Shown piece by piece: positions 30,467 to 51,931 of a stretch of DNA of 64,000 nt. Made by a program: the position numbers and the translations under genes. The DNA lies in contig NC_022997.1 in the NCBI RefSeq assembly GCF_000503895.1, positions 372,001-436,000 on the forward strand, given 5' to 3'. The stretch is from Hyphomicrobium nitrativorans NL23 (GTDB lineage Bacteria > Pseudomonadota > Alphaproteobacteria > Rhizobiales > Hyphomicrobiaceae). The notes under the pieces are model-generated. The model saw nothing but the letters and a program-made list of their open reading frames with translations, searched no databases and had not been told where the DNA came from. Position 1 is the first letter of the stretch. Each line of letters begins with the position of its first letter.

Positions 30467-30487
30467 TTTTCGCTCACGGGCCTGTTC

Positions 30488-30600: not shown

Positions 30601-30646
30601 TCGCGCGTTAAGACGTTTCGCAATAGGTGGAGCGGCAGCTCGTCTC

Positions 30647-31297
30647 TTACGGGCGGGTGCGCTCGGGGTTGCGGAGCTGCACGTAAAGCGCGCCTTCGCC
30701 TCCGTGAGGAATGGCCGCTGCCGTATAGCTCACCACGATGGCACGGAGCTCGGGCTCTGCAAGCCACATCGGCACGTTCTTGCGCAGCACGCCACGTTCC
30801 ACGGTGCCGAAGCCGTAGTCCGCGTCCTCGCGTTCGCGGCGCGAGATGCCCTTCCCCGTGATCACCAGCACCCAGCGCAGCCCGCGCCGGAAGGCAGAGA
30901 ACAGAAAGCCCCTGAGTGCGGCGTGTGCCTCGTGCTGGCGCATCCCGTGCAGGTCGATGCGTGCTTCGATTTCGAAGCGTCCCTGACGCAGCTTCCGCGC
31001 GGCCTTGCGGTCGAAGACATTGAGGGCGGGCGTCGCCGATAGCGGCTTCGGGACGGCGGTGCTCGTCGGCGGAGGAGGGGGCGGAGCTTTGAGCGCGGAT
31101 TTTTTGCCGGGCTTGCCCTTGCCGTCGGCTTTGAGTTCGAATGGGGGAACGCCTTCGAGATCGTCCGCACCCACAATGTACCGGGTCTTTTTGCCAGGAA
31201 TGGGCTTCAACGACGCGGCCATGTAGTCCCAAAGGGCTTCGTCTTCCTTCGAGAGATGACGGCGGCGGGGCGGCTGATGTGGCGGTTTCTTTCCCAT
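30647..31297 (-). CDS. Smr-domain protein
   Basis: A 216-residue protein. The N-terminal 95 residues are basic and proline-rich (a PPPPPP run); the C-terminal half is an Smr domain (EARIDLHGMRQHEAHAAL, LVITGKG), the fold shared with the MutS2 C-terminus and linked to nicking or RNA cleavage at collided ribosomes. Rhizobiales often encode it beside mltA and the Tim44-like gene, as here. The nucleic-acid activity is inferred. Confidence 0.88.
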   Translation of the reverse strand: MGKKPPHQPPRRRHLSKEDEALWDYMAASLKPIPGKKTRYIVGADDLEGVPPFELKADGKGKPGKKSALKAPPPPPPTSTAVPKPLSATPALNVFDRKAARKLRQGRFEIEARIDLHGMRQHEAHAALRGFLFSAFRRGLRWVLVITGKGISRREREDADYGFGTVERGVLRKNVPMWLAEPELRAIVVSYTAAAIPHGGEGALYVQLRNPERTRP

Positions 31298-31302
31298 TCC
31301 GC

Positions 31303-32424
31303 TTACGCCGCGTCGCGCGGGAGCAGGACGAAGAACCGTCCGGGGTGCTTTGTGGAGCCCGCCAACCGCCCCGCGTCTTCACCCGAACCGAAATAGATAT
31401 CGCCCCGCTCCGGCCCGCGGATCGCGGAGCCCACGTCCTGCGCGATCATTAGCTGTTCGAAGCTACGTTCTCCCCACGGTTTCAGTGTGGGGGCCGCGAC
31501 GTAAATCGGCGTTCCGAGCGCGTGATAGCCGGTATCGACCGCAAGGCTACGGCCATCCGACAATCCGGTTCCCAACGCGCCGAGAGGGGCGTCCGCATCG
31601 CCGTCAAGCTCGCGGAAGAATACGAATGACTTGTTCTGTTGCATCACCCGGCGCGCGCTCTCCGGATGCGCCGTCAGCCACACCTTGAGGGCATCGAGCG
31701 ACATCTCTTCGGCCGCCATCGCGCCGGTATCGATGAGGTATCGCCCGATCGACGTGTAGGGATGGCCGTTCTTGCCGTCGTAGGTGATGCGGATGCTCTC
31801 GCCGTCAGCGAAGCGGATGCGTCCCGAACCCTGGACGTGCAGAAAAAACGCATCGACGGGATCTTCCAGCCAGACAAGTTCGAGGCCCTCGCCGGCCAGC
31901 GCACCCGCTTCGATCTCGGCGCGCGTGGCATAGGGCTCCACGCCGGAGGCTGTCTTGCGCGCGTGGGTGGGAGCATCCGCCAGTGCGCCACGTTCCGCTT
32001 CACCCACGAGGTTCACGAGATCGGGCGGGCGGCGATAGATGGGAACGCGAAAGGCGCCGCTCGCTTCGCGGGACGCATCGAGCACGGGTTCGTAATAGCC
32101 GGTGAGAAGCCCCGCCGTGCTTTTGTGCTCCACGCGATGCGGCACGAACATCTGCTCGAAGAAGGCGCGCGCTGCGTCGCGGGTCGTGATGGCGTCTGCT
32201 TTGGACAGGGCAAGCTCGGCCGCCGCAACGAGTGCCGCATTTGCCGCTTTCGTTTTGCCGGATGCCCGCTCTCCGGCTTCTCGCAACGCGGGCGCCGATC
32301 TTGCGAACGCTTGAAACGCCGCGAGGTGATCGTCATCGCCCCAGCCCGGAAGCTCCGCAAACGGAACGGGCGAGAAGGCCGCCGCGAGGCTCACCGGCTC
32401 AGACGTTGGGGCTCCAAGGGGCAT
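31303..32424 (-). CDS. mltA: Membrane-bound lytic murein transglycosylase A
   Basis: A 373-residue MltA-family enzyme that cleaves peptidoglycan glycan strands, leaving 1,6-anhydro ends. Recognisable blocks are LLTGYYEPVLDASRE, VQGSGRIRFADG and the C-terminal 3D domain with DTGYHALGTPIYV and IAQDVGSAIRGPERGDIYFG, which carries the catalytic Asp region. Only ten codons separate the start from an upstream in-frame stop, so no signal peptide can be recovered; the export route is unclear. It is five bases from the Smr gene, probably one operon with Tim44-like. Confidence 0.9.
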   Translation of the reverse strand: MPLGAPTSEPVSLAAAFSPVPFAELPGWGDDDHLAAFQAFARSAPALREAGERASGKTKAANAALVAAAELALSKADAITTRDAARAFFEQMFVPHRVEHKSTAGLLTGYYEPVLDASREASGAFRVPIYRRPPDLVNLVGEAERGALADAPTHARKTASGVEPYATRAEIEAGALAGEGLELVWLEDPVDAFFLHVQGSGRIRFADGESIRITYDGKNGHPYTSIGRYLIDTGAMAAEEMSLDALKVWLTAHPESARRVMQQNKSFVFFRELDGDADAPLGALGTGLSDGRSLAVDTGYHALGTPIYVAAPTLKPWGERSFEQLMIAQDVGSAIRGPERGDIYFGSGEDAGRLAGSTKHPGRFFVLLPRDAA

Positions 32425-32451
32425 CGGGCGGGGTGCGGCGGGGCGGCAGGA

Positions 32452-33192
32452 TCAGTTTGGCGACTGCGTGCCGACCAGCTTCCAGTTGAGATTCCGACGT
32501 GCTTCCTTGCTGGAAATGTCACGCGAGAACGTCCAGATGTCGGTCACGTCCTTCACGCGGGACTCGTCCCCATCCACGATTTCGCCGGACTTGTCACGCG
32601 TGGCGCTGATGAGCTGGCTCACGAAGCGCACGGTGATGCTGGCGATGCCTTTGGAGCTGACTTCGGCTTCGAGGATGTCCGCCTTGTTGATGCCGACGAA
32701 GCTCTGGTCGATGACGAGGTTCTGCTGCTCGCGCTCGGAAATCGCGCGGCTGAAGCTGTCCAGCACATCAGCGCTCAGGAGATCGCGGAGCATGCGCCGA
32801 TTGCCCTCGGCAAACGCCGTCACGATCATTTCGTAAGCCTGCTTGGCGCCGCGGATAAAGGTCTCGGGCTCAAACGTGCTGTCGAGGCGCAGAATATCCA
32901 TCAGGCGTGTGGCGAGCTGTGTGTCCGCACCGGCAAACGCCTTAATGCGCTCCTCGACCTCGGCCACCGAGACGGTCGCTTCGGCCGGCTCGGCCTGACG
33001 GCCGCGCTGGGGCAACGCAACCACCTTATCGGACTGCGCACCGGCAACCTGCTTGTTCATCGCCTCGCGCTTGCGCTCGATGCGGGACTCGTCCTCTTCC
33101 GTCCGCCGGCCGAGGAGGCTCCTCAGCTTGATGATCGCGACAACGGCGACGACGAGAGACAGAAGCGTCAGAAGATTGATTTCGCCATCCAT
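32452..33192 (-). CDS. Tim44/TimA-like membrane-anchored protein
   Basis: A 246-residue protein with one N-terminal transmembrane helix (LLTLLSLVVAVVAIIKLRSLLG), a charged linker, and a C-terminal Tim44/MBA1-like domain (about residues 95-240) containing TFIRGAKQAYEMIVTAFAEGNRR and DIWTFSRDISS. In mitochondria Tim44 tethers Hsp70 to the translocon; the bacterial relatives are inner-membrane proteins whose role is not settled. It heads the Tim44-mltA-Smr unit and is divergent from secB. Confidence 0.87.
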   Translation of the reverse strand: MDGEINLLTLLSLVVAVVAIIKLRSLLGRRTEEDESRIERKREAMNKQVAGAQSDKVVALPQRGRQAEPAEATVSVAEVEERIKAFAGADTQLATRLMDILRLDSTFEPETFIRGAKQAYEMIVTAFAEGNRRMLRDLLSADVLDSFSRAISEREQQNLVIDQSFVGINKADILEAEVSSKGIASITVRFVSQLISATRDKSGEIVDGDESRVKDVTDIWTFSRDISSKEARRNLNWKLVGTQSPN

Positions 33193-33544
33193 GTCTTGGC
33201 AGCTTTCCCGGCAACGCCCTGAATTTGGGCTTCTGCCCTGATGTAAGATCGCTCGTGAGGTCCGTCCAGGCGCAGATCCCCATTGCGGTGAGAGGGACCG
33301 CACTTCAGAGGCACGCCGATCATGCCCTGCAACTTAGGCTACAACGCGGTGGTTGCCAAACGTTCTTAGGGCCGCAACTGGCCAAGATGCCATCATAAAA
33401 TGGGATATTGGCCGATTGCGGCTGCACCCCCGCCGTGATAGCAGCTTGCCCACCGGACCGGGGTTTTGCCAATAAATCCATGCGCCGGCCCCTGGGAGGG
33501 TCGCCAAGAGCGGCCGCGACAAGAAAAACGAGAGTTCGCTGATC
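33193..33544. promoter_or_regulatory. Divergent intergenic region between Tim44-like and secB
   Basis: These 352 bases contain no convincing gene. They must hold promoters for both directions; an AT-richer stretch near 33385-33410 (ATCATAAAATGGGATATTGG) is the best candidate for the secB promoter. fxsA, which often sits here in related genomes, is not present. Confidence 0.4.
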
Positions 33545-34051
33545 ATGGCAGAAGAAAAGAAGCCGACACCGCAAGCCGCAGCCGGCACCGATTCCAACGA
33601 GGTGGCCGTCGAGGCGCAGATCGTCGGACAGTTCATCAAGGATCTCTCGTTCGAGAACCCGAGCCTCGGCAAGCTTCTCGAAGGACCGGCCGAACCGCCG
33701 AGCATCAAGCTCGAAATCAACGTTGCCGCCAAGAAGCTCAAGCAGGACGACTTCTTCGAGAGCGTGATCGACTTCAAGGCCGTCGCCTCCAACAAGGACG
33801 GCACGATCTACGATCTCGAAGTGCTTTACGCGGGTCTGTTCCGCATCAAGAACATGCCTGAAGCTGCGCTTGAGCCGTTCCTGCTGGTCAACTGCCCGAC
33901 CTTGACGTTCCCGTTCCTGCGCCGGCTCGTGGCCGACATCACGCGCGAAGGCGGCTTCCCGCCGCTGCTGCTCGATCCGATCGACTTCGGACAGCTTTTC
34001 ATGCGCCGGAAGCAGGACATGGCGGCAGCCGCCAACTCCAAGCCCAACTGA
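33545..34051 (+). CDS. secB: Protein-export chaperone SecB
   Basis: A 168-residue cytosolic chaperone that keeps presecretory proteins unfolded and passes them to SecA. Family blocks are IVGQFIKDLSFENPS, VLYAGLFRIKNMPE, LVNCPTLTFPFLRRLVADITREGGFPPLLLDPIDF and the terminal FMRRKQ. Length and sequence fit alphaproteobacterial SecB. It converges on dnaQ, with two palindromic repeats between them. Confidence 0.96.
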   Translation: MAEEKKPTPQAAAGTDSNEVAVEAQIVGQFIKDLSFENPSLGKLLEGPAEPPSIKLEINVAAKKLKQDDFFESVIDFKAVASNKDGTIYDLEVLYAGLFRIKNMPEAALEPFLLVNCPTLTFPFLRRLVADITREGGFPPLLLDPIDFGQLFMRRKQDMAAAANSKPN

Positions 34052-34071
34052 TCGGGCTAGTCACTTTAGCC

Positions 34072-34122
34072 AGACCGATGATTCACGCTTCAGGCTGGCA
34101 GGGTCTGAAGCGATCATGGTCT
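34072..34122. repeat. 51-bp palindromic repeat family, copy 3
   Basis: Outer arms as in the other copies; inner stem CGCTTCAGGC / GTCTGAAGCG. The right edge reads GGTCTTTTT, so on the plus strand this copy could serve as a terminator for secB. Confidence 0.85.
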
Positions 34123-34130
34123 TTTTAGCG

Positions 34131-34181
34131 AGACCGATGATTCACGCTTCGGACTGATAGGGTCCGAAGCGATCATGGTCT
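34131..34181. repeat. 51-bp palindromic repeat family, copy 4
   Basis: Inner stem CGCTTCGGAC / GTCCGAAGCG, with paired changes relative to copy 2. The right edge GGTCTAG supplies the minus-strand TAG stop of dnaQ. Copies 3 and 4 are tandem, eight bases apart. Confidence 0.85.
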
Positions 34182-34905
34182 AGGCAGCGTCATCCGTTTT
34201 CTCGGAAGCGAGATAACGCTTCCACAGCGCGTTCTCTCCGAGCGTTTCGACAAACGCTCGATGGACCTCGATCTCGGCGGCGGAGAGCCGCGGGGCGAGG
34301 GGTGCCGGGCGTGCGGCTGGTTTCGCCGGGCCGCCGGTGCGGCCATCGCGCGCCGCCGACCCGCGGTTCGAGCCGAGCCCAAGCGTTGCCTGCCGTTCGC
34401 CCAAAAGCTCGACGTACACCTCTGCCAGCAGCAGCGAGTCCATCAGCGCGCCGTGCTTGATGCGCTTCGAGTTGTCGATGCCGTAGCGTTTGCAAAGTGC
34501 GTCGAGGCTGTTCGGTCCTGCGGGATGCTTGCGCCGCGCGAGCTGGAGCGTATCGACGACGCGGCTCATGGCGAGCGGACCGAGCTTCAGCCGCTCCAGC
34601 TCCGCATTGAGGAATCCGACGTCGAACGTGGCGTTGTGAATGACGAGCGTGTCGCCCGCGATGAAGTCGAGGAAATCGCCCGCGACGTCGGCGAACACGG
34701 GCTTGTCGAGCAGGAATTGCGTGGAGAGCCCGTGAACGGCTTCGGCTTCCGCAGGCACCGTGCGCTCAGGGTTGATGAACTGGTGAAACTCGCGGCCTGT
34801 CGGGTTGCGGTTTACGATTTCGATGCAACCGATTTCGACCAGCCGATCGCCCTTGCGGGGATCGAGGCCGGTGGTTTCCGTGTCGAGGACGATTTCGCGG
34901 AGCAT
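34180..34905 (-). CDS. dnaQ: DNA polymerase III epsilon subunit (proofreading exonuclease)
   Basis: A 241-residue 3'-5' exonuclease. Exo I is [10 protein letters not shown] (Asp8, Glu10), Exo II is the [14 protein letters not shown] block, and Exo III is [14 protein letters not shown], all catalytic residues being present. The C-terminal 60 residues form a Pro/Arg-rich linker and a final helix, as expected for binding the alpha subunit. It follows coaE on the same strand, 17 bp apart. The TAG stop is created by a palindromic repeat. Confidence 0.95.
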
Positions 34906-34922
34906 GGCGGTCCGGTGTGCAT

Positions 34923-35543
34923 TCAGAGGTCTTGCCAGTGCCGTGCGTAGGCTTCGGCCGGCTTCGATTTCAGCGAATCGAGGATAGCATCGACCTGGGC
35001 TTCACTGTCGGCAAGCGTGCCACCCGTATCCACAACGAAGTCGGCGCGCTGGCGCTTTTCCTCATCCGGCGTTTGCCGTGCGAGCAATCCGTCGAGCTTC
35101 TCCGGCGTCATGCCGGGCCGCGCGAGAACGCGGGCGCGCTGAACATCCGCAGGCGCCGAGACGACAACCACGGCATCCACCTGCTTGTCGCGCCCCGTTT
35201 CGAACAATAGCGGGACTTCGAGCACGGCCGTGGCGGCATGCGATTCGTGCGCAGTATGAAGAAAACGCCTTTCGGACGCGCGCACCAGCGGATGCACGAT
35301 CGCCTCAAGCTTGCGGAAACGGGTTTCGTCGTTGTTCAACGCGGCGGCGAGGCGCACGCGGTCGACGCGGCCGTCCTCCGTCGTTCCGGGGAACGCGGCT
35401 TCAACGGCAGCAGTCACCTCACCCGTGTAAAGACGGTGCACTTCCGCGTCCGCGTCGAACACGGGGATGCCGCGGCGGCGAAACATGTCCGCAATCGTCG
35501 ATTTCCCCATGCCGATGGATCCGGTGAGGCCAACGACGATCAT
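34923..35543 (-). CDS. coaE: Dephospho-CoA kinase
   Basis: A 206-residue P-loop kinase for the last step of coenzyme A synthesis. The P-loop is [12 protein letters not shown] (residues 5-16), followed by [13 protein letters not shown] and the lid region [11 protein letters not shown]. The ATG overlaps the aroE stop (ATGA). Part of the tightly packed ppsR-maf-aroE-coaE-dnaQ run. Confidence 0.95.
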
Positions 35544-36385
35544 CGCGCGCCCTCGATGTCGGCTGCGATCTTGTCGTAAAGTTCGTCCGTCACCTCGGGC
35601 CGTACGCCGAACCATTTCTCAAAGCCAGGCACCGCCTGGTGCAACAACATGCCGAGCCCATCGACGGTGTGCAGCCCGTGGCGGCGCGCATCGCGGATGA
35701 GCGCCGTTTCGAGCGGCACATAAACGATGTCGGACACGATGCAGTCGGGATGAAAGTCCGTGAAATCCATGTCGAGCGATCCTTCGCCCTTGAGGCCGAC
35801 CGCTGTCGTGTTGACCAGAACCGCGCTTTCCGTTGCGGCGCGCGAGCGCTGCTCCCACGGAAAGACTTTGACGCGCGGGCCGAAGTCGGCGGCGAGCGTT
35901 GCGGCGCGTTCGGCCGAACGATTGAACAGACGGATCTCCCCAACATCCGCTTCGAGGAAGCCGTGCACGATGGCGCGCGCCGCACCACCCGCGCCCAGGA
36001 TCGAGACCGGCGCGTCACGGCGGTTCCAATCCTCGGCCTGGAGCGCGAGATAGGTCATATAGCCGTAGGTGTCGGTGTTGGCCGCGCAAAGGCGCGCTCC
36101 TTCGAGCCACAGCGTGTTCGCCGCGCCGACCGCAACTGCCGATGCATCCCGTTCGTCCGCGATCCGGAATGCCGCTTCCTTGTGCGGGATGGTCACATTG
36201 CAGCCGGAAAACCCTGCGTTTGCGAGACCGCGCAAGAACGTCTCGACATCTTCGGGCCGCACCGCTTCCTTCGTATAGGTGCCGTCGATGCGATAACGGT
36301 CGAGCCAATAGCCATGGATCGCGGGTGAGCGCGAATGCTCGATCGGCCAGCCGATGACACACGCTTGTTTTCCGGCTCGCTTCAT
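35540..36385 (-). CDS. aroE: Shikimate dehydrogenase
   Basis: A 281-residue NADPH-dependent enzyme reducing 3-dehydroshikimate in aromatic amino acid synthesis. The substrate site is PIEHSRSPAIHGYWL, the NVTIPHKEAAF lysine is present, and the Rossmann motif is SILGAGGAARAIVHGF. The ATG overlaps the maf stop and the gene's own stop overlaps coaE, so the four genes are translationally linked. Confidence 0.95.
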   Translation of the reverse strand: MKRAGKQACVIGWPIEHSRSPAIHGYWLDRYRIDGTYTKEAVRPEDVETFLRGLANAGFSGCNVTIPHKEAAFRIADERDASAVAVGAANTLWLEGARLCAANTDTYGYMTYLALQAEDWNRRDAPVSILGAGGAARAIVHGFLEADVGEIRLFNRSAERAATLAADFGPRVKVFPWEQRSRAATESAVLVNTTAVGLKGEGSLDMDFTDFHPDCIVSDIVYVPLETALIRDARRHGLHTVDGLGMLLHQAVPGFEKWFGVRPEVTDELYDKIAADIEGAR

Positions 36386-36996
36386 GCTTCGAGCACTCCT
36401 CGCCGCAAGAGTTCCGCCACCAGCGGCAGCAGCGGCATTCCGAGGATCGTCGCGTGATCGCCCTCGACAGCCGCAAAAAGTTGAACCGCAGGGCCTTCGA
36501 TCTGATAGGCGCCGACCGACGTCAGGACGACATCGCCCACGCGCGCGAGATATCCGTCGAGCGCATTATTGGAGAACGCACGCATCGTGAGGTGCGCGAC
36601 AGCGACGTCGTGCCAAACGGTTTCACCGTTCACGCCCAGCGCCACGGCGGAATGCAGCGTATGCGTTTTTCCGCGCAACGCCACGAGCGAAGCGCGTGCG
36701 TCGTCCATGTCTCGCGGCTTCTCGAACAGGCGGCCTTCGAACGAGAGCACCTGATCCGCGCCGATCACGAGCGCATGCTTATGCTGCGCACTTACAGCTT
36801 TCGCCTTTTCCTCGGCGAGCGCGAGAGCGATGCGCGCGTGCGGAAGGCCTGGAGTGTCGGCAAGCAGCCCGTCGCGGATCGCCGCCTCGTCCACATCCGC
36901 GGGCGTGACGGTCACGGCAATGCCGGCGGCTTCCAGCATTGCGCGGCGTGTCGCGCTGCCGGACGCCAACACGAGGTGTGGCGCGTTACGCCTCAT
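36382..36996 (-). CDS. maf: Maf-family nucleotide pyrophosphatase
   Basis: A 204-residue house-cleaning nucleoside triphosphate pyrophosphatase. The N-terminal LVLASGSATRRAMLEAAGI is the Maf substrate loop, and GADQVLSFEGRLFEKPRD the conserved second block. Subclass (dTTP/UTP versus 7-methyl-GTP) is not clear to me. Its start overlaps the ppsR end by 11 bases. Confidence 0.92.
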   Translation of the reverse strand: MRRNAPHLVLASGSATRRAMLEAAGIAVTVTPADVDEAAIRDGLLADTPGLPHARIALALAEEKAKAVSAQHKHALVIGADQVLSFEGRLFEKPRDMDDARASLVALRGKTHTLHSAVALGVNGETVWHDVAVAHLTMRAFSNNALDGYLARVGDVVLTSVGAYQIEGPAVQLFAAVEGDHATILGMPLLPLVAELLRRGVLEA

Positions 36997-37867
36997 GGCC
37001 GGATTCCGCTGCGGTTTCCTTATCCTCCGCCGCGGCCCGCTCTTCCGCCTCTTTATCCTGCATCAGGCGAATGATGGTGGCTGCCGTCTCTTCGACCGAA
37101 CGGCGCGTCACGTCGATTACCGGCCAGCCATGCTTCGCGCAGAGCTTGCGCGTGATCGCGATCTCGGCCGCAATCCGGCTGCGGTCGACATAGTCGTCGA
37201 GGTCCCGGTCGCCGATGAGGAGCGCGCGGTTGCGCCTCACCTCCGCTATGCGGTCCGGGCTTGCGATCAGGCAGGCCACGAACGCGGTATGATCTCCAGC
37301 CAGCTCTTCCGGAAACGGCAGGCCCGGCACGATCGGCACGTTGGCCGTCTTGTACCCGCGCTGCGCGAGATAAATGCTCGTCGGCGTTTTCGATGTGCGC
37401 GAGATGCCGAGCAGGATGATGTCGGCTTCGTTCAGGTTGTCCGGCAGGCGGCCGTCGTCGTGCGCCATCGAGAAGTTCAAGGCGTCGATGCGGCGGAAGT
37501 AGTCGGCATCGAGCACGTGCTGGCCGGCAACGGTCGGCGTCTGCGGCGCGCCGAGGTACGATTCGAACACCTGCATGATCGGTTGCAGCACCGCGTAACA
37601 GGGAACCTTCAGCTCCTTGCAGCGCTGCTCGATCTCCGAAATCAGGTCCGTGTTGACGATCGTATAGAGCACGATGCCCGGTGCCTGCTCGATCTCCTGA
37701 AGTACGCGCTTCAACTGGCGCGCGTTGCGAACGAGCGGATGCATATGCTCGATGGGCCGCATCTGCGAATACTGAACGGCCGCCGCCTTGGCGATCGTGG
37801 TCAGCGTCTCGCCGGTCGAATCCGAGACGAGATGGAGGTGGAAGTAGCTCGGCCGGCTGTTGGTCAT
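36986..37867 (-). CDS. ppsR: Pyruvate, phosphate dikinase regulatory protein (kinase/pyrophosphorylase, DUF299)
   Basis: A 293-residue bifunctional regulator that phosphorylates and dephosphorylates pyruvate phosphate dikinase or PEP synthase. The N-terminal YFHLHLVSDSTGETLTTIAKA and the P-loop-like ILLGISRTSKTPTSIYLAQRGYK are diagnostic. In Caulobacter and Rhizobiales this gene faces hemE across the chromosomal origin, as here. The chosen ATG lacks a good ribosome site; an upstream extension to 38038 would run into the proposed origin and lacks family similarity. Confidence 0.92.
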   Translation of the reverse strand: MTNSRPSYFHLHLVSDSTGETLTTIAKAAAVQYSQMRPIEHMHPLVRNARQLKRVLQEIEQAPGIVLYTIVNTDLISEIEQRCKELKVPCYAVLQPIMQVFESYLGAPQTPTVAGQHVLDADYFRRIDALNFSMAHDDGRLPDNLNEADIILLGISRTSKTPTSIYLAQRGYKTANVPIVPGLPFPEELAGDHTAFVACLIASPDRIAEVRRNRALLIGDRDLDDYVDRSRIAAEIAITRKLCAKHGWPVIDVTRRSVEETAATIIRLMQDKEAEERAAAEDKETAAESGHEA

Positions 37868-38279
37868 CTGTGAATAAAGAGCCGATTTATCCCGGGGTGG
37901 GGTCGAGTTGCAGGGGGCCGTTGGTAAAAGGGCCCGGTTGTCCACCGAGATACTCTCATTATGGCCGAGATGAACCAATTTTCTTATGCGATGGGCATCC
38001 CTGTTGATTGGGCAGCTCTCGACAGGCCCACGGCGCATATCAACACGATATCCCCGGACCTGCGCGATCGCGGCGCGGGCGTAAGTGGTTGACTCCGATG
38101 GCTGCCAACGGGACTAGTGGCGCGCACTGGCACGGAGACGCAAGACGTTGTGTCGAACGTTACCCAGAGCGGAACGGGCGTGGGAGAACGTGGGGAAACG
38201 GCAGCAATCCCCACACTCCGCAGGCCTAATAAGAACAACAATAACTCAAAAAGATTCTTATCTGATTGAAGGGAAAGAA
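37868..38279. other. oriC: Putative chromosomal replication origin (oriC) between ppsR and hemE
   Basis: A 412-bp gene-free gap from which the flanking blocks diverge. DnaA-box-like 9-mers with 6-7 matches to TTATCCACA occur at 37938-37946 (TTGTCCACC), 38160-38168 (TTACCCAGA), 38189-38197 (reverse TTCCCCACG) and 38207-38215 (ATCCCCACA), with TTATCC at 37887. Bases 38227-38279 are strongly AT-rich for this genome and could be the unwinding element. Caulobacter oriC lies next to hemE in the same context. No perfect DnaA box was seen. Confidence 0.65.
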
Positions 38280-39344
38280 ATGGCTCTCGGTGGAGAAGGC
38301 GGGCTCAAGACAGCGGAACGGAAGTTCCTGGCACCGTTTCGTGGCGAGGCGCTCAAGGTGCCGCCGATCTGGCTGATGCGCCAGGCGGGGCGCTATCTGC
38401 CGGAGTATCGGGCGACGCGGACCGAGGCGGGGGGGTTCCTGAACCTCTGCTACACGCCGGCGCTGGCCGCCGAGGTGACGCTGCAGCCGATCCGCCGTTA
38501 TGGTTTCGATGCCGCCATTCTGTTCTCGGACATCCTGGTGGTGCCGGATGCGCTGGGCCAGGAGGTCCGGTTCGAGGAAGGCGAGGGGCCGAGGCTCGAT
38601 CCGATCCGTTCCGCGACCGATCTTTCGCGGCTCGACGTGGGTGCGACGGGCACCAAGTTCGCGCTCGTCGCGGAGACGGTTCAGCGGCTGCGGCAGGATT
38701 TGCCGGCGGAGACGGCGCTGATCGGGTTCTGCGGGGCGCCATGGACGGTCGCGACCTATATGGTTCAGGGGCGCGGGTCGCCCGACCAGGCAGAGGCCCG
38801 GCTCTGGGCGTATCGCGATCCGGAAGGGTTCGCGGATCTCATCGACACGCTGGTCGAGACGTCCGTCGAATATCTCGATTTGCAGGTCAAAGCCGGTGCG
38901 GATTGTCTCCAGATTTTCGATACCTGGGCTGGATCGCTGCCGGACGACGAGTTCGACCGCTGGGTTGTGGCGCCCACGCGTCAGATCCGGGAAGCCATCA
39001 AGGACCGGCATCCGGACATTCCCGTCATTGGTTTTCCGCGCGGGGCAGGCGCGGCCGTCGTCTGGTACGTGGCCGAGACAGGGGTGGACGGTGTGAGTTT
39101 CGACACGGCTGCGCCGCCGTTTCTCATGAGCGAGACGTTCGAGGAGGACGACGTGGTGGTCCAGGGCAATCTGGATCCCTTGCTCCTGGTGGCGGGCGGC
39201 GCGCGGCTGGACGCGCGTGTGGACGAAATTTTGGACCTGATGCAGGGCAAGAGATTCATCTTCAACCTGGGCCATGGAATCGTGCCACAAACACCGCCGG
39301 AGCATGTGGCGCAGCTCGTCGAGCGGGTGCGATCTCGGAGATAA
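38280..39344 (+). CDS. hemE: Uroporphyrinogen decarboxylase
   Basis: A 354-residue enzyme converting uroporphyrinogen III to coproporphyrinogen III in haem synthesis. The signature [16 protein letters not shown] (residues about 30-45), the catalytic Asp region [16 protein letters not shown] and [13 protein letters not shown] are intact. The ATG at 38280 has AAGGGA at the right spacing, and the frame upstream lies in the proposed origin. It is followed 29 bp later by hemJ, giving a small haem operon. Confidence 0.96.
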
Positions 39345-39373
39345 CTTCCAATGAATCAATGGGTTGATTGCAG

Positions 39374-39904
39374 ATGACCCGTGCCAGCGACGAGCATGCC
39401 TCTCCGGGAAAGCGAGCAGCGGTCGCTGTTGCGATCACGGCGGTGTTGTGCCTTGTCGCCGTGCTCTTGCTCGGGCCGGATGCTTACCTCTGGCTCAAGG
39501 CCGTGCACGTGATGGCCGTTATTTCCTGGATGGCGGGGATGCTCTATCTGCCGCGGCTTTTTGTCTATCATTCCGAGGCCGTTCCCGGCTCGGAACTGTC
39601 CGAAACGCTGAAGGTGATGGAGCGGCGACTGCTCCGGATCATCGTCAATCCCGCGATGATCGCGGCGTGGGTGCTTGGACTCTGGCTTGGCTGGCAGGGC
39701 GGCCTCTTCGGCACCGGGTGGTTTCACGCCAAGCTGGCTCTGGTCCTCACGCTTTCTGGGGTACATGGGTACTACTCGGCCGCCGTGCGCCGTTTCGCCG
39801 AGGATCGCAACACGGCCTCGACGCGCCATTGGCGGATTTGGAACGAGGTGCCGGCAGCCCTCATGGCCGGGATCGTCATTCTGGTGGTCGTGAAACCGTT
39901 TTGA
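39374..39904 (+). CDS. hemJ: HemJ-type protoporphyrinogen IX oxidase (membrane protein)
   Basis: A 176-residue membrane protein with four transmembrane helices. The HemJ pattern is visible: a conserved His/Trp block KAVHVMAVISWMAGMLYLPRLFVYH, then ERRLLRIIVNPAMI and the KLALVLTLSGVHGYY helix. HemJ catalyses a late oxidation step of haem synthesis, consistent with hemE just upstream. An in-frame TTG at 39368 is an alternative start. Confidence 0.92.
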   Translation: MTRASDEHASPGKRAAVAVAITAVLCLVAVLLLGPDAYLWLKAVHVMAVISWMAGMLYLPRLFVYHSEAVPGSELSETLKVMERRLLRIIVNPAMIAAWVLGLWLGWQGGLFGTGWFHAKLALVLTLSGVHGYYSAAVRRFAEDRNTASTRHWRIWNEVPAALMAGIVILVVVKPF

Positions 39905-40134
39905 CGCGCACGCGTTCTCTTCGAGACGCTTTCGCTCGCCGTTTTCGTTTGCTATATAAGGGGCTCCAGATTGAATCGGCTCCTGGTCTCTCCGGCCAGT
40001 GAGTGGTGCCATAGCCCATCCGTGCTGGCACCAGACAACGCGGCTTCACCGGCCGCGGATCTTCCAATTCCCCACCTCAGGCCCGGCACCCACTTGTCCC
40101 GCCCTTCTTGCCGTGGCCGCTATGGAGCGGTTGC

Positions 40135-41400
<1,266 letters not shown>

Positions 41401-41420
41401 AACGGATAATTCGAATAGAA

Positions 41421-41460
41421 AAAGCGCGCCGGACCAAATCGGGTCGGCGCGCTTTTTTTT
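41421..41460. terminator. Terminator between convergent rho and sterol-desaturase-like gene
   Basis: A stem AAAGCGCGCCG-GACC / GGGT-CGGCGCGCTTT with a 5-nt loop, followed by T8 on the plus strand and preceded by an A-run, so it can act on both transcripts. Confidence 0.88.
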
Positions 41461-41469
41461 AGCTTCGGC

Positions 41470-42438
41470 TCACTCTGCCGCGTCGTGGAGGGCGCGGGCT
41501 TGAGCGGCGGCCGTTTGCGGCGGTTTCTGGGTCTCGGCTTTCGTCTTCAAGCCGGACTGCACACCCTCACCGGGTTTGTAATGGAGCGGGAACGCGAGCT
41601 GGTCCATGTACCGCTTCGGGAAGTCCGGAACTTCGTCGACGCCCATGTCGCGCGCCGTGATGGGGCGCGGGGGCTCGGGATGGAAGGTGCCGAGCATGCG
41701 ATCCCAGATTGTGAAGAACAGGCCGAAGTTGCAGTCGCCTTCCTTGCCCCAGTTCACGTGATGCAAGTGATGGATCTGCCCGATGGCGAGGTGGTTGCGC
41801 AGCGGCCCAAGCGCGTAAGCTACGTTCGAGTGTTGCACGACGAGCTGCACCGTGATGACAAACCCGAGCAGCGCGGCAACCTCAACCGGCATGCCTGCAA
41901 GCGCCAACGGCGCGGTGCCGAGCACCAAATCGATGATCTGGTGCAGCGGGTGGCGGACCAGTCCGTTAAATCCATAGAGCCGCGCCACGCCGTGGTGCAC
42001 CGCATGCAGCCGCCATAGAAATGAAAAACGGTGGCTTAGATAGTGGAGATAGGTGAGCGCGAAATCGGCCAGCACGACTGCCAGAATGAGCTGCGCCAAG
42101 ATCGGCCAGTCCGTCGGCCAGATCCCCGCGTTGAGGCTTCCCGACGTCAGCCAGGCCACAAGCGGAATCGTGAGGATGCCGTTGAGGTTCTGCGCCTCGT
42201 AGACGATGGCATGAAAGATGTTCGTCTTTTCGTCACCGTGCGAGTGGTTCCATTCCTCATACCAGGGAAGGATCCGCTCCGCCGCGAACGCCGTTGCCAG
42301 GAGGATGCCGATGAGGAGTGCGAGCCAAGCATAGGAATGACCATAAGCGACGACGTAGTACGCCGCGCCGTTGAGGCCGAGCACCATGAACGGGAAATAT
42401 CCATACCGGACAAGAGTGCGAAGTGGTCCAGAATTCAT
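41470..42438 (-). CDS. Fatty acid hydroxylase/sterol desaturase superfamily protein
   Basis: A 322-residue di-iron membrane protein with four or more transmembrane helices. The histidine boxes are HYLSHR, HAVHH and HHLHHVNW. Substrates in this superfamily include sterols, carotenoids, fatty acids and hopanoid-type lipids; the substrate here is unknown. The C-terminal 30 residues are Ala/Lys/Gln-rich and disordered. It interrupts the otherwise plus-strand block right of the origin, together with the next gene. Confidence 0.87.
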   Translation of the reverse strand: MNSGPLRTLVRYGYFPFMVLGLNGAAYYVVAYGHSYAWLALLIGILLATAFAAERILPWYEEWNHSHGDEKTNIFHAIVYEAQNLNGILTIPLVAWLTSGSLNAGIWPTDWPILAQLILAVVLADFALTYLHYLSHRFSFLWRLHAVHHGVARLYGFNGLVRHPLHQIIDLVLGTAPLALAGMPVEVAALLGFVITVQLVVQHSNVAYALGPLRNHLAIGQIHHLHHVNWGKEGDCNFGLFFTIWDRMLGTFHPEPPRPITARDMGVDEVPDFPKRYMDQLAFPLHYKPGEGVQSGLKTKAETQKPPQTAAAQARALHDAAE

Positions 42439-42570
42439 GAGGGCCTCGTCTCAGACTTTCTCGACAACTCAATAGGATACGTGGACGAGCGCTGCTCGCA
42501 CGAAGTCTAACCGTGGTAAACACGGTTTTCACATGATTTTTCCTTACATCGTCGGTAAGAAACCTTGACC

Positions 42571-44601
<2,031 letters not shown>

Positions 44602-44684
44602 GATCTTATCCTTCCGATCCTCGATGGCGGGTTTCAACGATAACCCGCAAAGCCCATGCAAGTGTTCCGGATACCCCCCTCGCG

Positions 44685-46064: not shown

Positions 46065-46164
46065 CGTTTCACGTGAATCCTTTTGTGCCGGTTTCCGTGC
46101 ATCAGATGTTTCACGTGAATCCGTTTTTTGCGATCTTTCAGCGCGAAACGTTTCACGTGAATCC
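46065..46164. other. parS: Cluster of three parS-like sites, 42-bp spacing
   Basis: CGTTTCACGTGAATCC at 46065-46080, TGTTTCACGTGAATCC at 46107-46122 and CGTTTCACGTGAATCC at 46149-46164. Start-to-start spacing is exactly 42 bp each time, about four helical turns. A degenerate copy (TGTTTCAGGTGCG) begins at 46054. The consensus bacterial parS is TGTTTCACGTGAAACA. The sites fill the gap downstream of mnmE, and parA/parB are 4-6 kb away. Confidence 0.8.
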
Positions 46165-46260
46165 ATTTTCGATCACGTCGTCCGGCGCATCGTTACCGAA
46201 ATCTTAAGAAACGCGCGCCAGGATGATCGACATCGCCGCCGCTTGCGCTGGGTTTCGCCC

Positions 46261-46857
46261 GTGACCTCTGTTTCCTCCACACAGTCGAGCGCCGTGCAGA
46301 TCTTGCAGCAGGCGATGAGACCGCTGTCTTCGAGCGAAACGTCTCCCGCCGCGTCGGGTGCATCTCTCGTTGCGGCCGCAAACGGCGTGGAGCTGGCGAG
46401 CGGCGAAGACGGTGCCGGACCGGCGAGCCGTGCAAACGCCAAAGTTTCCGAAGCTCTTTTCAAGCCGAACGAGCCGAGCGCTATCGAGATGAAGCTTCAT
46501 CTCATGAAGCGTCTCGGAGACGAATTCGGCATCAAGCTCGAAGATCACGAAAACCATGCGTCTTTCGGGCGGGCCATCCAGGCCGAGATCACCAAAATCA
46601 AAATGAAGCCGGAAGGCGTATTGATCCTTTCGGCCATCGAAAAGAAGCTCGGTTTCGACAAGCTCGGCTTCTCGCTCGACACGTTCGTCAACGCCATCAT
46701 CGATCCCAAGGGAACGGACGGGCAGAAGGTGGATGCCGCGTTGAAAGATCACCTCGGAATCGACGACGAGGGCAAAGACAAGGCTGAGGCTGCGCGCGCT
46801 GCGCTCGACAAGCTGCGCTTCGACGAAGCTGGCCTTTATGGCTTTGTGGATACCTGA
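46261..46857 (+). CDS. Uncharacterised protein flanked by parS-like clusters
   Basis: A 198-residue protein from a GTG start; a TTG at 46243 is the alternative. Residues 1-70 are Ser/Ala/Gly-rich and probably disordered. Residues from about 75 on are helical and charged (EMKLHLMKRLGDEFGIKLED, LSAIEKKLGFDKLGFSLDTF). No signal peptide, membrane helix or enzyme motif is visible, and I do not recognise the family. Three parS-like sites lie upstream and two downstream, so it sits inside the probable segregation centre; a role there is only a hypothesis. Confidence 0.65.
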   Translation: MTSVSSTQSSAVQILQQAMRPLSSSETSPAASGASLVAAANGVELASGEDGAGPASRANAKVSEALFKPNEPSAIEMKLHLMKRLGDEFGIKLEDHENHASFGRAIQAEITKIKMKPEGVLILSAIEKKLGFDKLGFSLDTFVNAIIDPKGTDGQKVDAALKDHLGIDDEGKDKAEAARAALDKLRFDEAGLYGFVDT

Positions 46858-46894
46858 GCGCTGCAGCGCGTGAGCCGTTTCGGCCCGCAGCGCA

Positions 46895-46959
46895 TGTTTC
46901 ACGTGAATCCTTTTTTGCCTCCGTGCTTCCGCGCGGCGTTTCATGTTTCACGTGAATCA
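46895..46959. other. parS: Pair of parS-like sites
   Basis: TGTTTCACGTGAATCC at 46895-46910 and TGTTTCACGTGAATCA at 46944-46959, 49 bp apart, in the gap between the uncharacterised gene and a lipoprotein gene. They match the 46065-46164 sites at nearly every position, including the asymmetric AATC right arm. Confidence 0.78.
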
Positions 46960-46970
46960 CTTGGGGCCAG

Positions 46971-47405
46971 TCAATAGCTGACGAGGCTTGTGGACATCCC
47001 GGCGCTGGTGCCGAGGGTGCTTGGTGTCGTGGGGGCAAGAGGAAGGGCCGCTGTGCTTGCCGAGTTGCCCGGATTGCAGCGGTTTCCGGCAAGGGATGCG
47101 AGATAGGCATTCCGTTGCGAGAACGCCTGCGATTCCTTGCCGGCTGCGTTCTGGAAATCGAGGGCAAGCCAAGCGGGCCAGATCACGAAGCCAGCCGCAC
47201 CGGCCACGACGTTCTGGCCGAGCTTCAGACTTTCTTCGGTGGCGAGGGTCGATATTCGCGCGCTGTTGCGGTGGGTTTCGGCTTGGATTGCTTCGCAGTT
47301 CAGAGCCTGGTCCGACGCCAGGACGAGGGGCGGCAAGTGCGGCGCGCGCCCGGCGCACGCTCCGAGCATGAGTGCGAGACCAACGCCACCAGCCAATCTC
47401 AGCAT
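46971..47405 (-). CDS. Small putative lipoprotein
   Basis: A 144-residue protein with a lipoprotein signal peptide: basic start, hydrophobic core and the lipobox LMLGACAG, giving lipidation at about Cys17. The mature part has two more cysteines (one near residue 37, one near 110), a hydrophobic segment (VVAGAAGFVIWPAWLALDF) and a Ser/Thr/Pro-rich end. Function unknown. It is the only minus-strand gene between mnmE and coaA. Confidence 0.72.
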   Translation of the reverse strand: MLRLAGGVGLALMLGACAGRAPHLPPLVLASDQALNCEAIQAETHRNSARISTLATEESLKLGQNVVAGAAGFVIWPAWLALDFQNAAGKESQAFSQRNAYLASLAGNRCNPGNSASTAALPLAPTTPSTLGTSAGMSTSLVSY

Positions 47406-47634
47406 TCCGCATCTCCCGACTGAGCACGCGGGAATGCTCGCGAGGAATTGGGGTGTCCGTATGCGTTACATCTGCGTTTCCACACGTTTTCTCGATGCCA
47501 GTGCCAGTTTCTACGCCGCCTCAAGTGAGTTCCGGTGAGTTCAAGTCCGTCTCAGTCCGTGCTCATCCGCGCTTTGACCCCCGGAAAGGCCTCCTGTATC
47601 TCTCGCGCTGAATAGAGCAGCGAGCCAACAGCGG

Positions 47635-49509
47635 ATGAGCGCAAAGATCTTCGATGTGATCGTGGTGGGCGGCGGACATGCAGGTGTCGAAGCTGCTGCC
47701 GCGGCTGCGCGCATGGGCGCCAAAACTGCGCTGATTACGCATCGCTTCGACACGATTGGCGCCATGTCGTGCAATCCGGCCATCGGCGGGCTCGGCAAGG
47801 GCCATCTCGTGCGCGAGATCGATGCGCTGGACGGCCTCATGGGCCGCGTGGCGGATGCCGCCGGCATTCAGTTTCGGCTGCTCAACCGCTCGAAGGGTCC
47901 GGCCGTGCAAGGGCCGCGCGCGCAGGCGGATCGCGCGCTCTACAAGGCCGCGATGCAAGAGGCTATTTGCGAGACTGCGGGCCTCACGGTTCTGGAAGGT
48001 GCGGTCGAAGACCTGATCGTGGTCGACGACGAGGTGCAGGGCGTGACCACGCAGGCCGGTGACGAAATCCGGGCCGGAGCCGTCGTCTTGACGACTGGAA
48101 CATTTCTCAATGGTCTCATCCACTTAGGAAATTCTGTTATTCCCGCGGGTCGGGTCGGTGAAGCGCCTGCTTTGAAGCTCTCCGAGCGGCTGTACGGCCT
48201 CGGTCTTCGCATGGGGCGGCTCAAGACGGGGACGCCCGCACGGCTCGCGCGCAGCTCCATCGATTGGGATGCGCTGGAACAGCAAGAGGCCGACGCCGAG
48301 CCGGTGCCGTTTTCCTTCCTGACCGAGAAAATCACCAATCCTCAGGTGACGTGCGCGATTACGGCGACGACGGAGAAGACGCACGCGATCATTCGCGCCA
48401 ATCTCGAACGCTCGCCGATGTATTCGGGCCAGATCGCCTCGCGCGGGCCGCGCTATTGCCCGTCCATTGAGGACAAGGTGGTGCGCTTTGCGGACCGCAG
48501 CGCGCACCAGGTCTTTCTGGAGCCGGAAGGTCTCGACAGCGACACTGTCTATCCGAACGGCGTCTCGACCTCGTTACCAGCCGATGTGCAAGAGGCTTTT
48601 CTCAAGACTTTACCTGGGCTTGAGCGCGTTCAGATCACACAGCATGGCTACGCCATCGAGTACGATTACGTGGATCCGCGCGAGCTTTTGCCCACGCTTG
48701 AGACGAAGCGGCTTCGGCGGCTTTTCCTCGCCGGGCAGATCAACGGCACCACGGGATACGAGGAAGCCGGCGCGCAGGGCCTCGCCGCGGGCCTCAATGC
48801 GGCGCTAAAGGCTGCTGGCGGGGGCAAAACCTTCGTGGTTTCGCGGGCGGACGCCTATCTTGGCGTCATGATCGACGATCTCGTCACGCGGGGGGTCACG
48901 GAACCCTATCGGATGTTTACGTCGCGGGCCGAATTTCGCTTGAGATTGCGGGCAGATAACGCCGATCAGCGCATGACGCAAAAAGGCGTCGATTTGGGGT
49001 GTGTGGACACGGTTCGTTCTTTTTCATTTCGTAATAAAAACAATGAATTAGAGCGTATAGCTAAGATGTTTTCTAATTTTTCTGTTTCTCCGCGTGAAGC
49101 GGAACGAAACGGAATCGAACTTAACAGGGACGGGCGGCGTCGAACTGCGTTCGAACTTCTCTCTTATCCCGATATGACTTTGCGGCGTCTGGCTCAGATT
49201 TGGCCTGAGCTTTCCGGGATCGATCCCACGATTGCGGCTCAGGTCGAGGTCGATGCCCGCTATGCGGCGTACGTGGAGCGTCAGGATGCCGATGTCGCAG
49301 CGCTTCGGAAGGACGAGGCCATTTCGATCCCGGCGGCGTTCGATTATGCGGCTTTGCCGAACCTTCGGGCCGAACTCCGCGAAAAGCTGATCGCGCAGCG
49401 GCCGGCGACGCTGGCCCAGGCCGGGCGGATCGAAGGCATGACGCCGGCCGCGCTGATGCAGCTTCTGGCGGCTGTGAAGAAGCATTCCACGCGGAAATTG
49501 GCCTCATGA
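47635..49509 (+). CDS. mnmG: tRNA uridine-5-carboxymethylaminomethyl modification enzyme MnmG (GidA)
   Basis: A 624-residue FAD protein partnering MnmE. The FAD fold is [21 protein letters not shown], followed by [22 protein letters not shown] and the [11 protein letters not shown] and [16 protein letters not shown] blocks. Length is standard. Bases about 49014-49094 (residues about 460-487) are unusually AT-rich and use codons rare in the neighbours (TTA, ATA, AAT), yet keep the frame. The 229-bp leader 47406-47634 shows no further gene. Confidence 0.96.
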
Positions 49510-50171
49510 GTGAGGACCGGCCGCGAATCCGTTCTGCTGAGGCGTTTCGCGAGGTCTTCGGGGTTTCACGTGAAACGGCCGATCGGCTGAAAGTGTATGA
49601 GGCGCTGCTCAGGACGTGGCAGCGGACGATAAATCTCGTTTCGCCCATGACCTTGGACGACGCCTGGCACCGGCATTTCGCGGATTCCGCCCAGCTTTTG
49701 AATTTTTCTCCGCCGGATGCGAAAAACTGGCTGGATTTCGGGTCCGGGGCCGGATTTCCGGGGCTCGTCCTGGCCATCTTGCTGGCAGAGCGGGCTCCCG
49801 AAGCCCACATGACCCTCGTCGAAAGCGATTCTCGGAAGGCCGCTTTTCTTCGCGAGGTGGCCCGCAAAACTGGCGCGGCTGTGGAGATTCGGGTCGAACG
49901 GATCGAAAATACCGCGACTCAGGCTAACTCTCGGATAAGAGATGCAATCACGGCGCGTGCGTTGGCGCCTCTTCCGAAGCTTCTGGGGCTCGTTCTGCCG
50001 TTTTTTTCTCCCCAGACCGTGGCTGTGTTCCCAAAAGGCCGCGAAGCGGAGGTAGAGGTCGGCGAGGCGAAACGGCGATTCGATTTCGATAGCCAACTCG
50101 TCCCAAGTCTGACGGACGCTGAGGCGCGTATTGTGATCGTCCGAAATTTGGCTGTTAAGACGGAGGGTTAG
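49506..50171 (+). CDS. rsmG: 16S rRNA (guanine-N7) methyltransferase RsmG (GidB)
   Basis: A 221-residue SAM-dependent methyltransferase for G527 of 16S rRNA. The SAM site is [20 protein letters not shown], preceded by TINLVSPMT and followed by [16 protein letters not shown]. The ATG overlaps the mnmG stop (ATGA). The codons for VSRET near residue 20 spell a perfect 14-bp parS-like palindrome. parA follows five bases later. Confidence 0.96.
49563..49576. other. parS: Perfect parS-like palindrome inside rsmG
   Basis: GTTTCACGTGAAAC is a 14-bp perfect palindrome identical to the core of the consensus parS site. It lies 0.6 kb upstream of parA and within the coding sequence for Val-Ser-Arg-Glu-Thr. 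Confidence 0.82.
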
Positions 50172-50175: not shown

Positions 50176-51000
50176 GTGACAGGCCTAGGTTCGAAACTCA
50201 GAGTGCTTGCGATTGCCAACCAGAAGGGTGGCGTCGGCAAGACGACGACTGCGATTAATCTCGGCACGGCGTTGGCCGCGATTGGCGAGCGTGTGATTGT
50301 TATCGACCTCGACCCGCAGGGCAACGCCTCGACGGGGCTCGGAGTGCCGCCCGAAATGCGGGCCCGGACGTCTTATGACGCGGTGCGCGGCTCGGTCAGC
50401 CTGCTCGAAGCGGCGGCTCCGACGGCTATCCCTGGCCTTTTCGTCGTGCCGGCGAACTCCGATTTGGTCGGGCTCGAAGCCGATTTGTCGGGCGATCCGA
50501 GCCGGGCTTACAAGCTTCGGGACGCGGTTGCGGCGCTGGTTGCGCAATCTCAGTCTCGCCCGGCCGATGAGGCCTTTAAATACGTGCTGATCGACTGCCC
50601 GCCGTCTCTCAATATCCTGACGCTCAACGCGCTGGCCGCAGCAGATGCCGTGCTGGTGCCGGTTCAGTGCGAGTTTTTCGCTCTGGAAGGCATTTCGCAG
50701 CTTAAGGACACGATCGACCAGATCCGCGCTTCGCTCAACCCGAGCCTCGAAATCCAGGGCGTGGTGCTCACCATGCACGATGCGCGGACCACGCTGTCGC
50801 GCGAGGTCGCGGACGAGGTGCGGGCGTTTTTCGGGCCCAAGGTTTACCAGTCCGTCATTCCGCGGAACACGCGCGTCGCGGAGGCGCCGTCGCACGGCAA
50901 ACCGATCCTGCTTTACGATTACGATTGTGCGGGCAGCCAGGCGTACATCCGCCTGGCGACCGAAATCATCGAACGCGAACGTCAGACCAAAGCTGCGTAA
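50176..51000 (+). CDS. parA: Chromosome partitioning ATPase ParA
   Basis: A 274-residue deviant-Walker ATPase that moves ParB-parS complexes. The motif is ANQKGGVGKTTTAINLG, then VIDLDPQGNASTGLG and the Walker B region YVLIDCPPSLNILTLNA. The start is GTG, five bases after rsmG. The chromosomal ParA length and the absence of an N-terminal HTH indicate the housekeeping type rather than a plasmid ParA. Confidence 0.96.
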   Translation: MTGLGSKLRVLAIANQKGGVGKTTTAINLGTALAAIGERVIVIDLDPQGNASTGLGVPPEMRARTSYDAVRGSVSLLEAAAPTAIPGLFVVPANSDLVGLEADLSGDPSRAYKLRDAVAALVAQSQSRPADEAFKYVLIDCPPSLNILTLNALAAADAVLVPVQCEFFALEGISQLKDTIDQIRASLNPSLEIQGVVLTMHDARTTLSREVADEVRAFFGPKVYQSVIPRNTRVAEAPSHGKPILLYDYDCAGSQAYIRLATEIIERERQTKAA

Positions 51001-51022
51001 CCATCTCTGAACGAATAGAAAA

Positions 51023-51931
51023 ATGGGTATGTTCATGAACGCATCGCTGCCCAAGAACCGGCTTGGCCGTGGTCTCGCTTCTTTGATCGGGGACATCCCG
51101 CAGGGTCAGCCTCAGCCGCGCATTCCCGCCGAGGGCGAGCAGCGGTCCTTGCAGGTGGCGCAGCTTCGCGGCGGGCGCTTCAACCCGCGCAAGGAGTTCG
51201 CGGAGCCGGAGCTTTCGGAGCTGGCCGAATCCATCCGCACCAAGGGGCTTGTGCAACCCATCGTCGTGCGCCCGCATCCGGAAGACGCGCAGGCTTACGA
51301 GATCGTGGCTGGCGAACGGCGCTGGCGGGCGGCGCAGAAAGCCGGCTTGCACACGGTGCCGGTCATCGTCCGCGACCTTTCGGATCGCGAGGTGCTCGAA
51401 CTCGCGATCATCGAGAACGTGCAGCGTGCCGACCTCAACGCCATCGAAGAAGCGGGCGGATACAAGGAGCTGATCGAGCGCTTCGACTACAGCCAGGAGC
51501 AGGTTTCCGAGATCATCGGAAAGAGTCGAAGTCACGTCGCCAACACTCTGAGATTGCTGAAGCTTCCGGATTCGATCCAAGCCTATGTTCTGGACGGGCG
51601 ACTGACCGCCGGGCACGCGCGTGCGCTTGTCGGCCGGGCAGACGCCGAGGCGCTCGCGAAGCACATTGTGGAGCAGAACCTCAACGTGCGGGAGGCGGAG
51701 GCGCTGGCGCAGGCCGGGCCGATCGGCCAGCCCGGGTCTACGGGTGCGCGCACGGCGCGCGAAAAGGACGCCGACACGAAGGCGTTCGAGAAGGAGCTTG
51801 CGGATACGCTGGGGCTCAAAGTCGAGGTGAAGCGGGGGTCCGGCGAGAGCGGGAACCTCGTGATCAAGTACGGGAACTTCGACCAGCTCGATTATATCCG
51901 TTTGCGTCTGGTCGGGACGTCCGGCGGCTGA
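51023..51931 (+). CDS. parB: Chromosome partitioning protein ParB
   Basis: A 302-residue CTP-dependent clamp that loads at parS. The N-terminus has the ParA-stimulating motif NRLGRGLASLIGD, the CTP-binding domain has VAGERRWRAAQKAG, the HTH is VSEIIGKSRSHVANTLRLLKLP, and a C-terminal dimerisation domain ends the protein. A second in-frame ATG at 51035 is an alternative start. It is 22 bp after parA; its expected sites are those listed at 43.7-49.6 kb. Confidence 0.96.
   Translation: MGMFMNASLPKNRLGRGLASLIGDIPQGQPQPRIPAEGEQRSLQVAQLRGGRFNPRKEFAEPELSELAESIRTKGLVQPIVVRPHPEDAQAYEIVAGERRWRAAQKAGLHTVPVIVRDLSDREVLELAIIENVQRADLNAIEEAGGYKELIERFDYSQEQVSEIIGKSRSHVANTLRLLKLPDSIQAYVLDGRLTAGHARALVGRADAEALAKHIVEQNLNVREAEALAQAGPIGQPGSTGARTAREKDADTKAFEKELADTLGLKVEVKRGSGESGNLVIKYGNFDQLDYIRLRLVGTSGG

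Follow-up and report, generated by a model that had tools for sequence, protein, structure and literature searches.

Where does replication begin on the chromosome of Hyphomicrobium nitrativorans NL23? The genome is a single contig of 3,653,837 bases, of which we analysed in detail a window of 64,000 nucleotides (bases 372,001–436,000; coordinates below are those of the window unless given for the chromosome). The question is raised by a non-coding gap in this window, flanked by ppsR and hemE, which the first-pass annotation had proposed as the chromosomal origin. The proposal holds, in that the GC-skew switch, the polarity of an octamer and the position of a dif-like site agree on this locus, and we put the probability that the gap is the single bidirectional oriC of the chromosome at about 95%. 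The position of the replichore switch, the boxes and AT-rich DNA within the gap and its conservation are direct observations; the events at the origin that they suggest are worded conditionally below.

The ppsR–hemE gap: content and conservation

The gap measures 412 bp and separates two divergent blocks of genes, as first described; in all of the proteins tested (10/10) the expected Pfam domain was found (Table 1). On the minus strand these are Kinase-PPPase (ppsR), Maf, shikimate dehydrogenase, CoaE and a DnaQ-like exonuclease domain (RNase_T); on the plus strand they are URO-D (HemE), UPF0093 (HemJ), Rho, a ParA-type ATPase and ParB. The claim that parAB and parS-like sites follow to the right of the gap is likewise borne out, with six matches at up to three mismatches from TGTTTCACGTGAAACA at 46,065–49,577 against 0.07 expected. 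Five of these six (46,065–46,959, all on the plus strand) have an asymmetric core, GTTTCACGTGAATC, in common, and the palindromic parS core is seen at the sixth, 49,562, only. An Rfam search of 37,000–39,000 returned no RNA at E up to 1.

Table 1. Features of the origin region and the dif-like site of the H. nitrativorans NL23 chromosome (window coordinates, except where marked)
Feature	Position	Strand	Basis or remark
Very probable chromosomal origin, the non-coding gap from which ppsR and hemE diverge	37868..38279	.	GC-skew switch, octamer polarity switch, gene order and gap length among relatives
ppsR, Kinase-PPPase (DUF299/COG1806), left boundary gene	36986..37867	-	Pfam
hemE, uroporphyrinogen decarboxylase, right boundary gene	38280..39344	+	Pfam
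maf, aroE, coaE, dnaQ-like genes, leftward block	34180..36996	-	Pfam
hemJ (UPF0093) and rho, rightward block	39368..41400	+	Pfam
parA and parB	50176..51931	+	Pfam
Six parS-like sites (46065, 46107, 46149, 46895, 46944, 49562)	46065..49577	+	≤3 mismatches from TGTTTCACGTGAAACA
DnaA box TTATTCACA, 8/9, perfect TTWTNCACA	37869..37877	-	Scan; matching TGTG-A pattern in 7/8 same-genus gaps
DnaA-like box TTGTCCACC	37938..37946	+	Scan; TT[AG]TCCAC in 8/8 same-genus gaps, own included
DnaA-like site ATATCAACA	38,037		≤2 mismatches from TTATCCACA
DnaA-like site TTACCCAGA	38,160		≤2 mismatches from TTATCCACA
Conserved block GTTGACTC with GANTC (CcrM-type) site at 38,091	38088..38095	+	8/8 same-genus, 9/29 family gaps; putative role
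Conserved block CTAGTGGCGC	38114..38123	+	CTAGTGGC in 8/8 same-genus, 11/29 family gaps
AT-rich element, probable DNA-unwinding element, with CCTAATAA..AATAAC and GANTC site GATTC (38,253)	38225..38269	.	GC content; putative unwinding
dif-like palindrome CATAATATACATTATG	chromosome 2297146-2297161		Pattern search; near GC-skew maximum

Between 37,860 and 38,285 four sites lie within two mismatches of TTATCCACA, against 0.49 expected from a background rate estimated in a 20-sample subset of the 80 genome samples described below (Poisson P 0.0016), and a perfect TTWTNCACA is seen once in the gap against 0.005 expected. With up to one mismatch allowed, TTWTNCACA shows no enrichment there (1 seen, 0.15 expected, P 0.14); neither TTATCCACA nor TGATCCACA occurs in the gap in exact form, and the TNDTCCACA form is absent from it. 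The annotation had counted four DnaA-box-like 9-mers, all matching at 6–7 of 9 positions, and had thereby overlooked the best one, the 8/9 match TTATTCACA at 37,869. Its further suggestion that weak boxes reflect an initiator with a variant motif finds no support. The end of the DnaA ORF of this genome carries what we take to be the canonical DnaA signature; with the binding region looking canonical on that pattern, a variant DnaA was rejected, and, given the perfect TTWTNCACA box, no special initiator seems to be needed.

The AT-rich stretch noted before hemE is equally real: GC content is 28% over 38,228–38,277, a value so low that it is reached in just 0.34% of the 50-bp windows of a 1.6-Mb sample. 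Two GANTC sites of the gap fall within conserved blocks, and a role for CcrM at them may be supposed. The tetranucleotide TTAA does not occur in 37,860–38,285 and hence the CtrA site TTAA-N7-TTAA is absent; with 0 in this gap and 0/29 in the gaps of the family, an origin of the CtrA-gated Cori subtype was rejected.

By HemE, the closest named relatives are Hyphomicrobium and other Hyphomicrobiaceae assemblies. The comparison covers the loci of 30 of the 58 genomes that have a hemE match, and 29 of these 30 family loci (own included; L017 is the exception) have ppsR on the minus and hemE on the plus strand in divergent arrangement. Of 80 named alphaproteobacterial loci, 51 share this arrangement; Bradyrhizobium and its relatives are among those without it, as are loci truncated at contig ends. 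Among the gaps of the genus, TT[AG]TCCAC, GTTGACTC and CTAGTGGC recur in 8/8, and the ppsR-edge box and GA[CT]TCTTA in 7/8; family-wide these blocks drop to 7–12 of 29 gaps. The lowest-GC 40-mer, on the other hand, lies at the hemE end in 29/29 family gaps. TNDTCCACA occurs 26 times in the gaps of the family, spread over 21 of 36 loci (against 1.35 in shuffles), and 54 times in those of other groups, spread over 29 of 43 loci (against 2.25), i.e., in about 20-fold excess in both sets. One relative (G006), whose genome contamination is given as 5%, has a second hemE match (C169:792–1808, 54% identity), possibly on a foreign contig.

The replichore switch and competing positions

GC skew was measured in 80 samples of 20 kb, i.e., 1.6 of the 3.65 Mb, and switches between the 368-kb and the 414-kb samples. 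It is positive in 39 of the 40 samples that lie between 414 kb and 2.23 Mb on the right arm; on the other arm it is negative in 29 of 39, clearly so near the terminus and near zero elsewhere. Within the window a change point fits best at 37,350, and positions from 36,250 to 48,750 lie within 3 log-likelihood units of it. A switch elsewhere on the chromosome had been set in advance as a possible refutation of the origin; the sampled switch is at the gap. Owing to the weak skew of the left arm, the cumulative curve has a flat minimum (−758 at 184 kb, −868 at 368 kb). This one-sided skew would not by itself exclude the region of dnaA, a gene 216 kb from the gap that is not at the skew switch. Hence, an independent compass was sought in octamer polarity. 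As an observation in its own right, the sample at 690,001–710,000 of the chromosome (L047) has 46.8% GC against mostly 60–66% elsewhere, and is probably an acquired island.

GCGCTGGG ranks first in polarity among the 7,720 octamer pairs that occur at least 60 times: outside the origin and terminus zones, the samples hold 157 copies on leading strands and 0 on lagging strands, the runner-up being at 53/13. With slightly different zones and an odds-independent expectation, there are 0 lagging copies against about 62 expected and 160 leading copies against 110. No single-base variant comes near this polarity in number, GCGCTAGG (11/1) being rare; in the same samples, GGGNAGGG (137 leading, 53 lagging) and the Caulobacter chi sequence GCGGTGGT (60 leading, 23 lagging) were rejected as polarised motifs. 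Genome-wide there are 229 forward and 176 reverse copies of GCGCTGGG. Those in the window (14,222–59,307) comprise six on the minus strand (14,222–30,871), one plus at 33,004, one minus at 36,635 and seven plus from 38,550, whereby the orientation reverses within 30,879–38,549. As either the plus copy at 33,004 or the minus copy at 36,635 must be an exception, the octamer alone permits any switch point in this bracket.

A dif-like palindrome at 2,297,146 of the chromosome is nearly opposite the gap, 1.887 Mb to its right and 1.767 Mb to its left. The search pattern was modelled on known dif arms, and since the reversed control pattern also gave one match, the uniqueness of the site is by itself weak evidence. 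Taken together, these results fix the origin, and via the dif-like site the likely terminus, for a Hyphomicrobiaceae chromosome whose flat cumulative GC-skew minimum is potentially misleading.

The left replichore (2.3–3.65 Mb and 0–0.41 Mb) is almost without GC skew against the strongly skewed right one. The same contrast is seen, arm by arm, in GC3 skew, for which ORFs were called naively: its replication component is +0.14 (origin side) and +0.12 (terminus side) on the right arm versus +0.010 and −0.027 on the left. In a congener (G007) the arm bearing hemE, there on the minus strand, is negative in 24/24 samples, and 16 samples of its other arm (C3 above 1.39 Mb) lie between −0.027 and +0.018; a further family member (G014) has nearly zero skew on both arms. 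The origin-side genes of the left arm of NL23 show low variance and no correlation between neighbours (r 0.055), which argues that this arm is no fresh mosaic of inversions, and a recent mosaic was rejected as the cause. Both the GC3 components and this uniformity could be accommodated if, in the course of evolution, forks had crossed part of the left arm from either side, owing to extra or dispersed initiation besides the origin at the gap. We consider this unlikely: the left-arm copies of GCGCTGGG are polarised 0/73, which fits one fork direction, and repeated older inversions within the arm offer an alternative that could have averaged its skew away. Indeed, matches between NL23 and the congener, though block-clustered and not independent, number 19 in the same orientation and 14 inverted on the left arm against 34 and 10 on the right.

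Initiation close by but elsewhere in the 30.9–38.5 kb bracket, or at multiple points there, is very improbable. Octamer polarity alone cannot separate positions within it, and in relatives the orientations are mixed near the gap; yet the gap has the AT-rich element, the enrichment in DnaA boxes and the family-wide conservation, and it lies where the origins of other alphaproteobacteria have been mapped. Origins beside dnaA are common in other bacteria, and this, along with the nearly flat cumulative curve from 184 to 368 kb, might speak for an origin at dnaA (194 kb on the chromosome) and for the gap as a mere divergent promoter region of ppsR and hemE, but such a reading is barely credible and was rejected: the skew becomes positive only past about 388–414 kb, and the samples between dnaA and the switch in the window hold 13 minus and 0 plus copies of GCGCTGGG, with no forward copy before 405,004 (33,004 in the window) among the matches listed, so that no switch of octamer polarity lies at dnaA.

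The octamer as a possible strand-coded element

The polarity of GCGCTGGG extends to relatives, with exceptions. It ranks first in the congener G007 (63/4, i.e., 4 lagging of 67) and also, with 23/0, on the left arm of G014, and in both its orientation likewise changes at ppsR–hemE. In G001, 50 minus and 0 plus copies were found on C1 among the matches listed, which supports the rule weakly, such listings giving one strand only for single-contig genomes; none of the listed matches came from G046. It is looser in G019, also of the family (e.g., 39 plus and 8 minus on contig C9 among the 47 matches listed), and in the flanks, at a 4-kb scale, of other Hyphomicrobiaceae the ppsR side has 13 plus and 5 minus copies, against the rule, these orthologous sites not being independent. 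A genome from another family (G053) has 361 forward and 436 reverse copies in all with no strict polarity visible, its first 100 forward places being spread evenly over 1.24 of 4.5 Mb. Thus, G053, the looser G019 and the ppsR side near the origin speak against the polarity as a general rule. For the three family members with detailed sampling, the octamer points to origin and terminus more sharply than GC skew does.

Like KOPS, AIMS and Chi motifs, GCGCTGGG is favoured on the leading strand, and because the genome encodes an FtsK gamma domain and AddB, either classical reader (of KOPS or of Chi) may act on it. As an 8-mer preferring leading strands (157/0) it resembles AIMS, which, in the definition given in PMC5993296, increase in abundance and strand bias toward the terminus. 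Such a rise is not what we see: on the right arm the 20 origin-side samples hold 39 sites and the 20 terminus-side ones hold 48, and the orientation is mixed near the dif-like site. There, in a partly sampled switch zone that includes this putative site (2.258–2.365 Mb), 5 of 12 sampled sites are misoriented. Polarity thus seems to be lost where KOPS, the orientation of which switches at dif, should be best ordered, a pattern that would fit fork direction better than KOPS. A text search of the literature for GCGCTGGG gave no chromosome-architecture paper among the matches listed, which does not prove the motif unpublished.

We tentatively suggest, as a possibility well short of an even chance, that GCGCTGGG is a sequence-specific element bound to point with the fork and purged when reversed, except within a few kb at the origin and about 70 kb at the dif-like site. 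Neither classical KOPS nor Chi would be needed for this; reversal may harm the passage of the fork, e.g., by a polar fork barrier. If true, a strict strand code would be centred on the origin, surviving on a replichore without GC skew and reporting fork direction where skew cannot. It raises the question of which protein reads GCGCTGGG, and why the reverse orientation is not tolerated.

A proposed course of initiation and known origins

Briefly, we envisage the following course of events at the gap. DnaA would bind the ppsR-edge box, the TTGTCCACC-type box and the weaker sites, and would then open the AT-rich element beside hemE, with subsequent loading of the helicase. The forks would exit via the ppsR and hemE sides and would converge in a region some 100 kb wide that surrounds the dif-like site, 1.89 Mb to the right and 1.77 Mb to the left. 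ParB at the parS-like cluster, about 8–11 kb to the right of the gap, would segregate the new origins.

The alphaproteobacterial oriC of the hemE/DUF299 type is recognised by its place between hemE and the DUF299/COG1806 (Kinase-PPPase) gene, by a locally AT-rich intergenic region of >300 bp, by DnaA boxes beyond chance and by a switch in replichore strand bias. The gap has that very placement; it spans 412 bp, with 50 bp at 28% GC, its DnaA boxes exceed chance, though they are weaker than in many relatives, and the strand bias of the replichores switches at it.

Among the known origins, the chromosomal one of Sinorhizobium meliloti, which Sibley et al. are said to have placed in 2006 beside hemE, has the same order, the likeness being one of description and not of one-to-one sequence. 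According to PMC4433202, the S. meliloti origin is devoid of CtrA motifs. Hyphomonas neptunium is likewise a budding alphaproteobacterium, and PMC6650430 reports for it a marker-frequency maximum close to hemE with parAB about 7 kb from that gene, and no clear origin prediction from GC skew and DnaA boxes. It belongs to a different family by name and, again, is likened by description, not by sequence. GC skew was likewise insufficient in several alphaproteobacteria according to PMC1914354, which locates the origins of Caulobacter and Rickettsia prowazekii in the interval from hemE to COG1806, a placement that upholds the earlier statement that the Caulobacter origin has the same context. As described in PMC1914354 and PMC8959179, Cori of Caulobacter crescentus has the same two flanking genes, a similar size, strong and weak DnaA boxes, an AT-rich part and parS on one side; it differs in its five CtrA sites (TTAA-N7-TTAA), the gap of the window being without any TTAA. 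Across the sampled gaps of the family, the origin thus keeps the Caulobacter position while CtrA sites are lacking. With origins adjacent to hemE in Caulobacter, R. prowazekii and H. neptunium, and CtrA motifs lacking in the account of S. meliloti, the gap is an ordinary case: an origin in the Caulobacter position that belongs to an already known kind.
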